Source: Actinomycetota bacterium (lineage in GTDB: Bacteria > Actinomycetota > Acidimicrobiia > Spongiisociales > UBA11373). From it: a DNA stretch of 32,392 bases. A program made the position numbers and the translations under genes. The DNA is taken from assembly GCA_016870535.1 (NCBI GenBank), contig VGBK01000013.1, positions 1 to 32,392 on the forward strand, given 5' to 3'. Numbering within the stretch: the first letter of the stretch is position 1; every line of letters begins with the position of its first letter. Shown here one piece after another: positions 14,896 to 32,392 of this stretch. The notes under the pieces were generated by a model. That model ran no database searches. It worked only from the letters and a program-made list of their open reading frames with translations, and had not been told where the DNA came from.

Positions 14896-14924
14896 TTGAC
14901 GGGCCATGACCTGCGTCGTATCGT
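14896..14924 (+). promoter_or_regulatory. Sigma70-type promoter of catabolic operon 1
   Basis: TTGACG (14896-14901) and TATCGT (14919-14924) are separated by exactly 17 nt. The predicted transcript start near 14931 falls at the left edge of the palindrome at 14932-14944, so a protein bound there would block initiation. This is the best promoter match I saw in the window. Confidence 0.65.
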
Positions 14925-14931
14925 GGCACCG

Positions 14932-14944
14932 CTCGATAATCGAT
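14932..14944. promoter_or_regulatory. Operator-like palindrome, site 1
   Basis: CTCGATAATCGAT contains the arms TCGAT and ATCGA around one central A (14933-14943). The same 13 bases occur at 29765-29777. An AT-rich 13-mer shared exactly by two operon heads is unlikely by chance in such GC-rich DNA. The likely ligand is the GntR/FCD regulator encoded at 25674-26387. Confidence 0.65.
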
Positions 14945-14984
14945 GATTGCCCGAGCCCTCGATCACGGGCCGAGAAGGGGACGC

Positions 14985-15350
14985 ATGCTCAAGTCGGTGC
15001 GGCGCGATGAGGTCCAGGTCGTCCATCTCCCGGGTCGCGATTGGCTCCTGTACGTGGGGCCGGAGAGCGTGGGGGCCCAGAACCTGACGGTCGGCTATTC
15101 GGTCTTTCCCCCGGGCTCCGCTCCCCCGGGACACGTCCACCCGACCCAGGAAGAGGTCGTGTTCTGCGTGGCCGGACGCGGCGAACTGGTGAGCCCCGAG
15201 GGCAGCGTCCCTCTGGAGCCGGGCACCGCCGTCTACATCCCCGTCGGCGTCCACCACGCCACCGTCTCGCTCGGACCGGGGAACCTGGAGCTGGTCACCT
15301 CCTTCTCCCCGCCCGTAGTACCCGGATCGTGGGACAAGAAGGTCGAGTAG
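14985..15350 (+). CDS. Cupin-domain protein
   Basis: The 121-residue single-cupin protein has motif 1 at residues 44-64 (GSAPPGHVHP, ligands H50 and H52, EE at 56-57) and motif 2 at 80-91 (YIPVGVHH, ligand H90). The metal site is complete. Such small cupins can be isomerases, lyases or dioxygenases acting on sugar acids or aromatic fragments; the reaction cannot be named. It is the first gene of operon 1. The ATG follows GAGAAGGGG. The operator-like palindrome lies about 40 nt upstream. Confidence 0.9.
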   Translation: MLKSVRRDEVQVVHLPGRDWLLYVGPESVGAQNLTVGYSVFPPGSAPPGHVHPTQEEVVFCVAGRGELVSPEGSVPLEPGTAVYIPVGVHHATVSLGPGNLELVTSFSPPVVPGSWDKKVE

Positions 15351-15379
15351 CGACGGCGCGAACGCCGAGGAGGCAGCCA

Positions 15380-29937: not shown

Positions 29938-29938
29938 A
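29810..29938 (+). CDS. Possible 42-residue leader peptide
   Basis: The frame starts ATG at 29810, 12 nt after GGAGG, and ends in a TGA that shares one base with the ATG of E1 alpha (TGATG). The product is Arg/Gly/Asp-rich, without a recognised family. Stop-start overlap suggests translational coupling, but random GC-rich sequence often stays open this long, so coding is uncertain. Confidence 0.25.
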   Translation: MPERRTPRAAVDPEDGVMAATRGRRDGDGRRALPPSAGRGIA

Positions 29939-30942
29939 TGTCGCCGCCCAACGACACCTTCGAGATCACCGAAGCCACCCGCCTGCTCCTCTACCAGAGC
30001 ATGCTGCGCTGCCGGGCCCTGGAGAAGAAGGCCTACGACCTCTTCATGGAGGGCCTGGTCCAGGGAACTACCCATCTCGGCCTGGGACAGGAGGCGGTAG
30101 CCGCCGGGTTCGCCGCCACCCTCCGCCCCGACGACATGTCTTTCGCCACCTACCGCGGTCACAACCACATGCTGCTGCGGGGAATGGCGATGGCCCCCAT
30201 CCTGGGGGAATGCGCGGCGCGGGCCAACGGCTGCTGCGAAGGCAAGGGTGGCTCGATGCACATCACCGAGGTCGCTAAGGGCGCCATGGGCTCCTACGCC
30301 ATCGTCGGCGCCCACCTGCCGATTGCCGTCGGCGCCGCCTGGGCGGGCGTGGTGCGAGGCACCGGACAGGTCTCGCTGTGCTTCTTCGGCGACGGCACCA
30401 CCAACATCGGCACCTTCCACGAGGCGGTCAACCTGGCGGCCATCTGGAAGCTGCCGGTGGTGTTCGTGTGCGAGAACAACCTCTACATGGAGTACACCCC
30501 CATCTCGGCGGTCATCCCGGTGGAGTACCCCGCCGCCGACCGGGCGTCGGCCTACGGGCTGGAACGCATCATCGTCGACGGCAACGACGCCGACGCGGTG
30601 TACCAGACAGCCGTCACCACCGTCGAACGGGCCCGGCGCGGCGAGGGCCCCTCCCTGGTGGAGGCCCTCACCTACCGGCACAAGGGGCACTCCCGGGCCG
30701 ACCCGGGGAAGTACCGGCCCGACGAGGAGGTGGCGGCGTGGTTGGAACGGGACCCGCTGCTCGTCTACCGGGGCCGGCTCGAGAGCCTGGGGTTCCCGCC
30801 CACGGTGCTCGACGAGATGGAGCAGTTGGCTCGGGCCGAAGCGGAAGCGGCCGCCGACGAGGTACGCGCCGCCCCCTTGCCCGATCCGGCGGCCTTGATG
30901 ACCGACGTGTGGGCGAACGGAGGCTCGGAATGGCGGAACTGA
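29938..30942 (+). CDS. 2-oxo acid/acetoin dehydrogenase E1, alpha subunit
   Basis: The 334-residue product is a PDH/acetoin-dehydrogenase-type E1 alpha. The TPP/Mg motif runs from GDGTTN (151-156) to CENN (178-181). THLGLGQEAVAAG (45-57), YRGHNHML and the KGGSMH loop (103-108) are typical. It decarboxylates or cleaves a 2-oxo or acetoin-like substrate and hands the acyl group to a lipoyl E2 not in this window. AcoA-like length and KGGSMH fit acetoin or branched substrates; the exact one is open. ATG after GGAAGGGG. Confidence 0.93.
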   Translation: MSPPNDTFEITEATRLLLYQSMLRCRALEKKAYDLFMEGLVQGTTHLGLGQEAVAAGFAATLRPDDMSFATYRGHNHMLLRGMAMAPILGECAARANGCCEGKGGSMHITEVAKGAMGSYAIVGAHLPIAVGAAWAGVVRGTGQVSLCFFGDGTTNIGTFHEAVNLAAIWKLPVVFVCENNLYMEYTPISAVIPVEYPAADRASAYGLERIIVDGNDADAVYQTAVTTVERARRGEGPSLVEALTYRHKGHSRADPGKYRPDEEVAAWLERDPLLVYRGRLESLGFPPTVLDEMEQLARAEAEAAADEVRAAPLPDPAALMTDVWANGGSEWRN

Positions 30943-31901
30943 CCTATCGCAACGCCATCGCCCGGGGCATAGGCCAGGAGATGGAGCGCGACGAGCGCGT
31001 GGTGTTCATCGGCGAGGACATCGGGGCCGCCGGCGGGGTGTTCAAGACCACCGTCGGCCTCTTCGAGCGCTTCGGCCCCGACCGGGTGCGCGACACCCCC
31101 ATCTCCGAGCAGGCCATCATCGGCGGGATCATGGGAGCCGCCATGAACGGGCTGCGCCCCATCGGCGAGTTGATGTTCAGCGACTTCGTGGGGGTGGCCT
31201 GGGACGGTATCGCCAACCAGATCGCCAAGACCCGCTACATGACGGCCGGCCAGGTCGCCTTGCCCCTGGTGATCCGCACCGCCAACGGGGGCGGCACCCA
31301 CTTCGGGGGCCAGCACTCCCAGAGCGTCGAGAACTGGCACATGATGATCCCCGGCCTGAAGGTGGTGGCCCCGGCCACCCCGCGCGACGTCGTCGGCCTC
31401 ATGGCCGCCGCGGTGCGCGACGACGATCCGGTGATCTTCCTGGATCACAAGAAGCTGTACGCCCTGAAAGAGGACGTGCCCGACGGCGAGATCGTGGACG
31501 TCCTGGGCAAGGCCGTGATCCGGCATCCCGGCTCGGATGTGACCATCGTGGCCCTGGCCGCCATGGTGCACGTCGCTCTCGAAGCCGCCGGCCGCCTGGC
31601 CGAACACGGCGTCTCGGCCGAGGTCATCGACCTGCGCACCCTGGTGCCCCTCGACACCGCCACCTTCCTGGAATCGGTGTCGCGCACCGGCCGCCTGTTC
31701 ACCGTCGAGGAGAACCCCCGCCTCTGCGGCTGGGGAGCCGAGATCGCCTCCATCGCGGCCGAGGAGTGCCTGTGGGACCTCGACGGCCCGATCGTGCGGA
31801 TCACCACCCCGCACATCCCCCTCCCGGCGGCGGCCAACCTGGAGGACCTGGCCATCCCGTCGGCGGAGCGAGTGGTGCAGACGGTGCTCTCGCAGGCGTG
31901 A
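30930..31901 (+). CDS. 2-oxo acid/acetoin dehydrogenase E1, beta subunit
   Basis: The 323-residue product pairs with the alpha subunit. IGEDIG (residues 27-32) and DTPISEQAIIG with the cofactor-activating Glu, LMFSDFVG, GGGTHFGGQHSQS and the C-terminal transketolase-C domain (VTIVALAAMVHVALEAA; VEENPRLCGWGAEIA) are clear. The start ATG lies 13 nt inside the alpha gene, so translation is coupled and equal amounts are expected. No dihydrolipoyl E2/E3 gene is seen before the window ends. Confidence 0.95.
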   Translation: MAELTYRNAIARGIGQEMERDERVVFIGEDIGAAGGVFKTTVGLFERFGPDRVRDTPISEQAIIGGIMGAAMNGLRPIGELMFSDFVGVAWDGIANQIAKTRYMTAGQVALPLVIRTANGGGTHFGGQHSQSVENWHMMIPGLKVVAPATPRDVVGLMAAAVRDDDPVIFLDHKKLYALKEDVPDGEIVDVLGKAVIRHPGSDVTIVALAAMVHVALEAAGRLAEHGVSAEVIDLRTLVPLDTATFLESVSRTGRLFTVEENPRLCGWGAEIASIAAEECLWDLDGPIVRITTPHIPLPAAANLEDLAIPSAERVVQTVLSQA

Positions 31902-31959
31902 TGAGGCGACGAGATACCGGACCGGCAGCGGTGTTGCCGGCCCTCCCGAGGAGGACTTG

Positions 31960-32392
31960 ATGAACGAGTACCGGATCGCGGTGATCCCGGGAGACGGCGT
32001 CGGCACCGAGGTGTCGACCGAGGCCGAGCGGGTGCTGCTGGCCGCAGGGCGCCGCTTCGGCTTCGGGTTGAAGGTCGAGTGGTTCGACTGGGGATGCGAC
32101 CGGTACCTCAAGGATGGCGCCATGATGCCCCGGGACGCCCTCGACACCCTCTCCCGGTTCGACGCCATCTTCCTGGGCTGCATCGGCGATGCCGACCTGG
32201 TGCCGGATCACATCTCCCTGGAGATGCTGCTGGGCATCCGCAAGGGCTTCGACCAGTATGTGAACCTGCGGCCCATCCGCCTGTACCCCGGGGTGGACAC
32301 ACCGCTGCGCACCGCCACCCCGGAGACGGTGGACTTCGCCGTAGTGCGGGAGAACACCGAGGGTGAGTACTCCCGGCTCGGGGGCATCTTCA
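31960..32392 (+). CDS. Tartrate/D-malate dehydrogenase-like (IPMDH family), partial
   Basis: Only the first 144 codons are present; the gene runs off the window. The opening YRIAVIPGDGVGTEV is the dinucleotide-proximal start of the isocitrate/isopropylmalate dehydrogenase family. DQYVNLRPIRLYPGV and VVRENTEGEYS match the tartrate dehydrogenase/decarboxylase and D-malate dehydrogenase branch (the substrate-binding Arg of NLRP is present). It would oxidatively decarboxylate a 2-hydroxy acid with NAD. ATG follows CGAGGAGG, 58 nt after E1 beta. Confidence 0.9.
   Translation, partial: MNEYRIAVIPGDGVGTEVSTEAERVLLAAGRRFGFGLKVEWFDWGCDRYLKDGAMMPRDALDTLSRFDAIFLGCIGDADLVPDHISLEMLLGIRKGFDQYVNLRPIRLYPGVDTPLRTATPETVDFAVVRENTEGEYSRLGGIF

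Follow-up and report, generated by a model that had tools for sequence, protein, structure and literature searches.

Two-component dikinases that act on phenols have been described as HpeHI, CreHI and PpsAB, and HpeH is a dikinase subunit without an ATP-grasp domain (PMC12167813). A transketolase made of two subunits is known from Carboxydothermus hydrogenoformans (PMC7661550, 6YAK), and the anaerobic phloroglucinol cluster has, beside dehydrogenases, a cyclase-family hydrolase with C-C ring-opening activity, dihydrophloroglucinol cyclohydrolase (PMC10470551). The stretch of DNA analysed here, whose whole length of 32,392 nt is referred to as the window, is the complete contig C13 of an Actinomycetota source genome, G000 (2.57 Mb, 322 contigs, 96.45% completeness). 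It carries three operons that an initial annotation had read as one uncharacterised catabolic island. We found that relatives of these described proteins occur there within a conserved gene set, which very probably forms one regulon.

The locus resembles each of these systems only in part. Protein Q of operon 2 has the layout of HpeH, with a substrate domain, a C-terminal swivel domain carrying an invariant His and no ATP-grasp domain, but in the window it has no adjacent ATP-grasp gene and belongs to a set with a molybdenum (Mo) hydroxylase, a transketolase and GAPDH- and PGK-like genes. The C. hydrogenoformans enzyme is the best solved match for both transketolase halves, whereas its segment THAGLTVGEDG reads GYAGLLAGMTG in the window, and the island family lacks the His and Asp at these places. 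The phloroglucinol cluster is a precedent for C-C ring opening, but the passages on it in PMC10470551 mention no Mo hydroxylase, dikinase or transketolase. Protein O shares with the PEPCK/HPr kinase superfamily a predicted fold over its full length, the P-loop and counterparts of two conserved residues (Lys85 and His104); it differs from PEPCK in its size (293 residues versus more than 500 in the aligned PEPCK chains), in having, as judged by eye, Thr-Glu for Asp-Asp, and in scoring under the Pfam cut-offs. No published description of this gene set was found in the open-licence literature, in line with the initial annotation, which knew of no pathway with such a set.

Results

The gene set recurs in other phyla

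Window proteins were assigned to families with Pfam and NCBIfam (E≤0.001), and genes are referred to by letters (E-J in operon 1; R, Q, P, O, N, M, L and K in operon 2; S, T and U in operon 3). The genes named by the initial annotation were all present with family matches, except that O itself matched no family; its list for operon 2 had omitted the GntR/FCD regulator P. Since O belonged to no Pfam or NCBIfam family at this threshold, it was chosen as the neighbourhood probe, and 78 loci (1.14 Mb together) were found with it in named genomes. They were labelled mostly Chloroflexi and Acidimicrobiia, and also Dormibacterota, a few Actinomycetes and two Spirochaetia. The nearest locus, L048 (labelled Acidimicrobiia), encoded an O 88% identical to that of the window, from which the source genome is probably a member of the Acidimicrobiia.

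The window proteins and seven neighbour proteins were then mapped onto the 78 loci (tblastn, E≤1e-15, at least 35% of the query). The Mo hydroxylase subunits N (75 loci), M (70) and L (68) were the most frequent partners of O, followed by Q (59), P (57), K (42), a Zn-alcohol dehydrogenase (35), the SDR H (32), a PPDK-like protein (29), the metallo-beta-lactamase-fold (MBL) hydrolase I (28), a transaldolase (25), R (24), an MMSDH-type aldehyde dehydrogenase (20), DUF1097 (17), the transketolase halves F and G (14 each), a PEP-hydrolase-like protein (13), E (10), S (8), T (7), J, C, D and a single ATP-grasp protein (2 each), and U and an FGGY kinase (1 each). These counts are lower bounds, because many loci stop within a few kilobases of O. 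When at least 40% identity was demanded, the counts fell to 67 for L, 27 for H, 23 each for transaldolase and R, 18 for the aldehyde dehydrogenase, 8 for DUF1097 and 7 for S, and the FGGY kinase dropped out; those for N, M, Q, P, K, the Zn-alcohol dehydrogenase, the PPDK-like protein, the MBL hydrolase and the transketolase were unaltered. Given their low counts, E1 alpha and beta (S and T) and the MFS permease J may be lineage-specific. Strand and gene order differed widely among the loci while the partners stayed constant. Operons lying far apart among unrelated neighbours, the arrangement that the initial annotation had named as speaking against a single system, is not what the relatives show. 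A named isolate, Actinotalea lenta, has a smaller version of the set, made up of O, K, the alcohol dehydrogenase, the Mo hydroxylase and R. Both the window and A. lenta (L113 2000-3508) have an FGGY sugar kinase close to the island, the two being only about 31% alike.

Co-occurrence extended to whole genomes. Among 28 O-bearing genomes chosen from the 78 and searched whole, Q was present in 25, including genomes where it was not beside O, and was not found in G315, G316 and G320. The transketolase C half was likewise present in 25 of the 28 (E≤1e-60; 23 at 55% identity or more), in some of them not beside O, and was not found at this threshold in G303, G304 and G305. In 60 genomes of the phylum the best C half outside G000 was 47% identical, the phyla of this sample not being matched to those of the O-bearing genomes. 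No close relative of O was found in 295 other genomes of the phylum sample (best match E 2e-5), and plasmid records gave no match.

A palindromic site is shared by the operons

The 13-base sequence CTCGATAATCGAT occurred exactly twice in the window, and both copies lay in promoters, one ahead of operon 1 and one in the promoter region from which operons 2 and 3 diverge. Allowing two mismatches added no further window site; shuffled sequences gave a mean of 0.19 sites, and 3 of 100 shuffles reached two. Over the 78 loci the core TCGATnATCGA matched 94 times, as against 3, 3, 1, 7 and 2 times in five first-order Markov shuffles. Nine other palindromes of equal length, not matched in composition and some containing stop codons, gave no matches in the same loci. 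Most core matches (84 of 94, in 52 loci) were outside mapped genes, which make up 69% of the bases; this is not equivalent to intergenic, as unmapped genes exist. Of these 84, 72 lay within 600 bases before the start of a mapped island gene, among others Q, R, E1 alpha, transaldolase, DUF1097, cupin, SDR, PPDK-like, aldehyde dehydrogenase, P, O and N, and the Spirochaetia were included. The remaining 10 matches, which fell within mapped genes and in several cases within the cyclase gene, were left out of account. The gene set and its site thus exceed chance, the former recurring in other phyla and the latter far above the shuffled expectation.

The site was also found at these positions in relatives. 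It stood ahead of the cupin gene in L068, L097, L111, L125, L223, L225 and L232, and in L223 and L225 gene D was directly upstream of site and cupin, as in the window. The site lay between E1 alpha and R in L048, L057, L095, L102, L114 and L116, and between E1 alpha and Q in L055. The same palindrome therefore precedes the operons of both thiamine pyrophosphate (TPP) enzymes, in the window and in relatives, which supports the earlier view of two different TPP enzymes under one regulon. As far as sequence goes, the shared site also argues against independent control of the operons. A site outside mapped genes was present in 44 of 57 loci with P versus 8 of 21 without it, and P probably runs the regulon through a palindromic site of approximately TAATCGATnATCGATTA. 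Two of the genomes whose loci lack P, G315 and G316, had three one-mismatch matches each in a genome-wide scan.

The island continues on a second contig

That scan used the pattern AATCGATNATCGA with one mismatch allowed, and a palindrome may count twice in it, once per strand. In G000 it gave 8 matches at 7 places, of which the window and contig C21 have two each, and C9, C41 and C219 a single one each. The reversed pattern gave no match in G000 and 0 to 5 in relatives, but it contains stop codons and is a weak control. The right end of the window (32089-32392) overlaps the end of C21 over 304 bases with 5 mismatches, and the U protein is identical over residues 45-145, which suggests strain variation that halted assembly. 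As C21 ends inside U and overlaps the end of the window, operon 3 consists of E1 alpha, E1 beta, U and an MMSDH-type aldehyde dehydrogenase.

Around the two sites on C21 we found a Gfo/Idh/MocA oxidoreductase, an FAA hydrolase, an Asp/Glu racemase-family protein and the aldehyde dehydrogenase. C21 also carries GAPDH- and PGK-like genes, whose products are 78% and 65% identical to Pfam-tested proteins of G318, and a branched-chain-type ABC binding protein with permease- and ATPase-like neighbours that were judged by look only. In G318 the order is PPDK-like, site, U, GAPDH, PGK, C_GCAxxG protein, site, cupin, transketolase, SDR, MBL and a transporter-like protein. The three operons proposed at the outset are thus all real, but the set is larger, with two more gene groups on C21 that carry the same site.

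Table 1. Positions of the island genes, candidate operator sites and neighbouring genes in the window.
Feature	Position	Strand	Assignment and remarks
FGGY sugar kinase	11723-13264		near island
C, Dabb-domain protein	14021..14323	+	Pfam PF07876; upstream neighbour, weak membership; homologue 65-69% in 2/78 loci
D, putative redox protein C_GCAxxG_C_C	14332..14832	+	Pfam PF09719; immediately 5' of operon 1; 2/78 loci
Operator site 1 (candidate), CTCGATAATCGAT	14932..14944		40 bases ahead of cupin start
Operon 1	14985-20247	+	
E, small cupin	14985..15350	+	Pfam Cupin_2; 10/78 loci
F, split transketolase N-terminal subunit	15380..16273	+	Pfam Transketolase_N; best solved relative 6yak
G, split transketolase C-terminal subunit	16270..17220	+	Pfam; H461 and D469 equivalents substituted; aligned with 6yaj and human TK
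H, SDR dehydrogenase, gluconate-5-dehydrogenase-like	17273..18058	+	family match
I, MBL hydrolase	18102..18965	+	family match
J, MFS permease	19021..20247	+	family match; only 2/78 loci
Operon 2	29611-20292	-	
K, cyclase-family metal hydrolase	20292..21182	-	Pfam PF04199; motif HSGAHIDALAH; 42/78 loci
L, Mo hydroxylase large (Mo) subunit	21179..23428	-	family match; conserved Glu709; nearest solved 1rm6, 4-hydroxybenzoyl-CoA reductase alpha
M, Mo hydroxylase 2Fe-2S subunit	23425..23901	-	family match
N, Mo hydroxylase FAD subunit	23901..24767	-	family match
O, compact PEPCK/HprK-superfamily orphan	24769..25650	-	P-loop GESNHGKS; no family at E≤0.001; predicted fold
P, GntR/FCD regulator, candidate operator binder	25674..26387	-	family match; 57/78 loci
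Q, dikinase acceptor part	26398..28134	-	substrate domain and swivel with His536, no ATP-grasp; family match and fold
R, UPF0261/Tm-1-like protein	28223..29611	-	family match; 24/78 loci
Operator site 2 (candidate), CTCGATAATCGAT	29765..29777		between divergent R and E1 alpha
Operon 3	29938-contig edge	+	
S, E1 alpha, 2-oxo acid or acetoin dehydrogenase type	29938..30942	+	family match
T, E1 beta	30930..31901	+	family match
U, tartrate-dehydrogenase-like enzyme, N-terminal part	31957..32392	+	family match; cut by contig edge, rest on C21

Q is the acceptor part of a putative split dikinase

Q had been labelled PEP-utilising. The family match holds, and Q is better described as the substrate-binding and swivel part of a rifampin-phosphotransferase-type dikinase. 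Its model (pLDDT 87.1) was matched by Foldseek to rifampin phosphotransferase along its entire length (5fbu, E 1.3e-19, TMq 0.63, rmsd 8.8, 600 columns), and the family search found no PPDK_N or ATP-grasp domain in it. Q thus has what is expected of the acceptor subunit of an HpeHI-type dikinase, namely RPH substrate-binding and swivel domains without an ATP-grasp. Its swivel residue His536 was invariant in all 35 aligned sequences (the window and 34 of 50 usable loci sequences). Of 24 distant Q relatives in the phylum sample, 20 had an ATP-grasp match nearby, which in 8 cases lay within the same open frame. In both Spirochaetia loci a 319-residue ATP-grasp protein directly preceded O, and the PPDK-like protein is the other ATP-grasp candidate of the island. 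A Rubrobacter-like cluster (the name is a guess; L144-L147) combines a Q about 61% identical and a related GntR regulator with its own ATP-grasp protein, two cyclases, an FAA hydrolase, an ABM protein and a histidine phosphatase; it differs in lacking O and in a Mo hydroxylase only about 33-36% identical to that of the window. From these comparisons, the pairing of kinase part, Mo hydroxylase and cyclases seems to have been assembled twice.

O is a compact relative of PEPCK and HPr kinase

O was modelled with AlphaFold2 on 40 orthologues (pLDDT 92.2, pTM 0.89). With this model Foldseek ranked ATP-dependent PEP carboxykinases at the top (1ayl, E 2.9e-9, TMq 0.46, rmsd 9.1) and HPr kinases lower (1ko7, E 2.3e-5). 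VIA-align gave Z 12.7 against 2pc9 over 243 residues spanning residues 1-293 (rmsd 4.4), and Z about 11 against HprK over 122-125 residues. The label HprK-like therefore fits the fold over about 125 residues only, PEPCK being matched over the whole length. The P-loop G119-S127 was invariant in 40 of 40 members. In a profile alignment against ten PEPCKs, whose statistics are weak, the P-loops aligned and Lys85 and His104 of O paired with an invariant Lys and His, which we take to be metal binders in PEPCK. The corresponding hhalign score was E 0.0037 with a probability of 8.9 over 82 columns only, and structure comparison was preferred. The Asp-Asp of PEPCK (GDDE), invariant in 10 of 10 PEPCKs, lies beyond the end of the profile alignment and by eye reads STETT in O, with Thr-Glu at its place, so that O lacks this motif. 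No member exceeded the gathering score of PF01293 (PEPCK), for which 15 of 40 members gave weak matches (best E 0.016) and the window member none at E≤0.001; nor was that of PF07475 (HprK) reached (window O, E 0.022, 14.7 bits versus a cut-off of 33.3). Searching the PDB by sequence returned only non-significant HprK and encapsulin matches. By the tests made, O is, as modelled, a compact relative and not a member of PEPCK or HprK.

The sharing of a locus by O and the FAD subunit N (75 of 78) fits O as a maturation factor of the Mo enzyme but proves nothing. In L078, L081 and L092, labelled Dormibacterota, O and N are kept without M and L of the same family after N. We infer that O acts either as a further small-molecule kinase or, driven by nucleotide, as a partner of the Mo enzyme. 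L070 and L084 also keep O and N without that M/L family, the five loci comprising three Dormibacterota, one Chloroflexi and one bacterium. Opposite them, L084 carries a fused Mo hydroxylase of a different type; in L081 and L092 they are followed by genes of the XdhC family.

Transketolase, PGK-like protein, Mo hydroxylase and cyclase

The N half of the transketolase retained the TPP residues, with the GDGE motif and His residues conserved in 12 rows. In the C half, the equivalents of H461 and D469 were replaced in all 15 island transketolases, the His by Tyr or Phe and the Asp by Thr or Ala. The numbers are those of E. coli, assigned by motif, with an alignment to 6yaj and human TK. Among 29 other C halves of the phylum (best-scoring loci), the His was kept in 27 and the Asp in 27, which contradicts their loss as a general trait of split transketolases. 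H461 has been linked with phosphate binding, and variants of D469 alter aldehyde acceptance (PMC3657141, PMC7661550). In the two PGK-like sequences read, an Asp (HQGD) stands where the three solved PGKs compared have Lys or Arg (HQGK, HLGR).

The Mo hydroxylase has the features of the xanthine dehydrogenase family: MoCo domains, FAD and 2Fe-2S subunits, and a conserved Glu. This residue, Glu709 of L, was present in at least 97% of 62 aligned rows and is presumably the catalytic Glu. A second Mo hydroxylase set, about 34% identical, lies in L228 (G317:C150, 3805-7456) just ahead of a Gfo/Idh/MocA gene and Q. K was not seen in the Spirochaetia loci, and one of these, L121, has an SMP-30/gluconolactonase-like gene, which hints at a lactone as the possible substrate of K.

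Discussion

The shared site, the conserved yet shuffled gene set and the co-occurrence in genomes together point to one catabolic regulon. That the three operons and the C21 groups serve a single catabolic pathway is, in our judgement, highly probable, and the initial reading of one system stands as a conserved, probably co-regulated set. Several observations weigh against it. The loci were picked by O and many are close relatives, so the counts are not independent. E1 alpha and beta occur in at most 8 and 7 loci, one of them distant, and Q and P are absent from the Actinomycetales loci L108, L113 and L119. Neither the Zn-alcohol dehydrogenase nor the transaldolase of the relatives has a close copy in the source genome (best 34% and 33%); L048 has the former between K and J, where the window leaves 44 bases (20247-20292). 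The ATP-grasp candidates of G000 itself lie outside the island: a PPDK-like protein on C1, 58% identical to the island one and encoded among housekeeping-looking genes, and a PPDK_N protein on C6. As to the site, 26 of 78 loci, including some long ones (L056, L065, L070), have no core match outside mapped genes; L108 and L113 have none, and their genomes have three one-mismatch matches each. One-mismatch matches numbered 48 in G318, 48 in G321, 34 in G317, 31 in G302, 14 in G311, 12 in G303 and 10 in G296, and among the matches listed those of relatives were mostly on non-island contigs. With so many sites elsewhere, either the regulator is a broad one or the one-mismatch pattern gives noise, and the regulon may reach wider than the island pathway.

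For the pathway itself the following order is proposed. A hydroxylated, probably cyclic, compound would be taken up by the ABC or MFS transporter, oxidised by the Gfo/Idh/MocA oxidoreductase, the SDR and, where present, the Zn-alcohol dehydrogenase, and hydroxylated by the Mo enzyme. The split dikinase may phosphorylate the substrate, phosphate passing from an ATP-grasp partner to His536 of Q and on to a substrate hydroxyl, and K would open a ring or lactone. The retooled split transketolase, with a transaldolase in relatives, would cut C2 and C3 units to aldehydes. These would enter central metabolism through the GAPDH/PGK-like pair, with an energy gain, the MMSDH-type aldehyde dehydrogenase, U and E1. 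The phosphorylation and ring-opening scheme is tentative, its chemistry being deduced from enzyme families; for the explanation as a whole, regulon and chemistry together, we consider the chances evenly balanced.

The alternative that survives best, although we hold it doubtful, is degradation of an aromatic or N-heterocyclic compound, in which the dikinase phosphorylates a phenol-type hydroxyl, the Mo enzyme hydroxylates the ring, and the cyclase and FAA-type hydrolases open it, a sequence close to the order suggested by the initial annotation. Q belongs with HpeH in a group of which the characterised members act on phenols (PMC12167813), the solved protein nearest to the Mo subunit is 4-hydroxybenzoyl-CoA reductase, the Rubrobacter-like cluster joins its Q and ATP-grasp protein with a different Mo hydroxylase, two cyclases, FAA hydrolase and ABM, and an FAA hydrolase is on C21 too. 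Such a route leaves the transketolase, transaldolase, GAPDH- and PGK-like genes poorly accommodated, and no ring-cleaving dioxygenase or CoA ligase was recognised in the gene tables, in which most genes are unannotated and no dedicated search was made.

An arrangement of two or more distinct pathways linked only by a broad carbon-source regulator is unlikely. The E1, cupin/transketolase, Tm-1 and transporter blocks come and go among loci, three genomes lack the transketolase (G303, G304, G305), and several relatives have dozens of one-mismatch sites. In the source genome, however, four of the seven distinct one-mismatch sites fall in the island, and the same blocks reunite in different phyla.

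A little less probable still is a sulfonate-sugar pathway of the sulfoquinovose type, with sulfo analogues standing in for sugar phosphates as intermediates. The co-occurrence of transketolase and transaldolase resembles that in the bifurcated sulfo-TK/TAL pathway (PMC11659671). The phosphate-site His of the transketolase is lost and the PGK-like protein has Asp in place of Lys/Arg, and TauE/SafE exporters beside island genes (L116 2475-3191 and L224 8240-9184) hint at a sulfonate or sulfite product. Yet TauE was seen in two Acidimicrobiia only, and a glycosidase, sulfosugar isomerase or sulfolyase was not recognised in the gene tables, where no dedicated search was made. A Mo hydroxylase and a dikinase, moreover, are not known to take part in sulfoglycolysis. 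A biosynthetic pathway, with the PEPCK-, PPDK-, GAPDH- and PGK-like enzymes working towards a cofactor or polymer, is very improbable: several members look like gluconeogenic enzymes, but the set includes uptake genes (MFS, ABC binding protein), an FCD-type regulator and a CoA-acylating aldehyde dehydrogenase of the MMSDH type. A myo-inositol type pathway was dropped, because the Zn-alcohol dehydrogenase of the relatives gave low, tied NCBIfam scores (scyllo-inosose 3-dehydrogenase 209.5 bits versus a cut-off of 450; threonine dehydrogenase 209.3) and is absent from the source genome.

A wider form of the catabolic regulon, which is possible though rather unlikely, would be a shadow central carbon metabolism, in which one regulator controls retooled relatives of transketolase, transaldolase, GAPDH, PGK, PPDK and PEPCK, these handle sugar-like fragments without the usual terminal phosphate, and O founds a new class of compact PEPCK-fold small-molecule kinases partnering a Mo hydroxylase and a split dikinase. 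The conservation of so large a set, under one operator, in mostly uncultured bacteria of several phyla suggests that the breakdown of a common substrate has gone unrecognised. The operator offers a handle for finding the regulon in other genomes, as do the orphan PEPCK-fold family and the transketolase with its rewritten substrate channel for the pathway.

The UPF0261 gene R and the PEP-hydrolase-like gene (13 loci) are often adjacent in the island. We take PF09370 to be the second, TIM-barrel half of Tm-1, and their standing side by side indicates a metabolic setting for Tm-1 domains. In plants, the virus-resistance protein Tm-1 has a UPF0261 domain joined to a TIM-barrel domain (PMC5028733).

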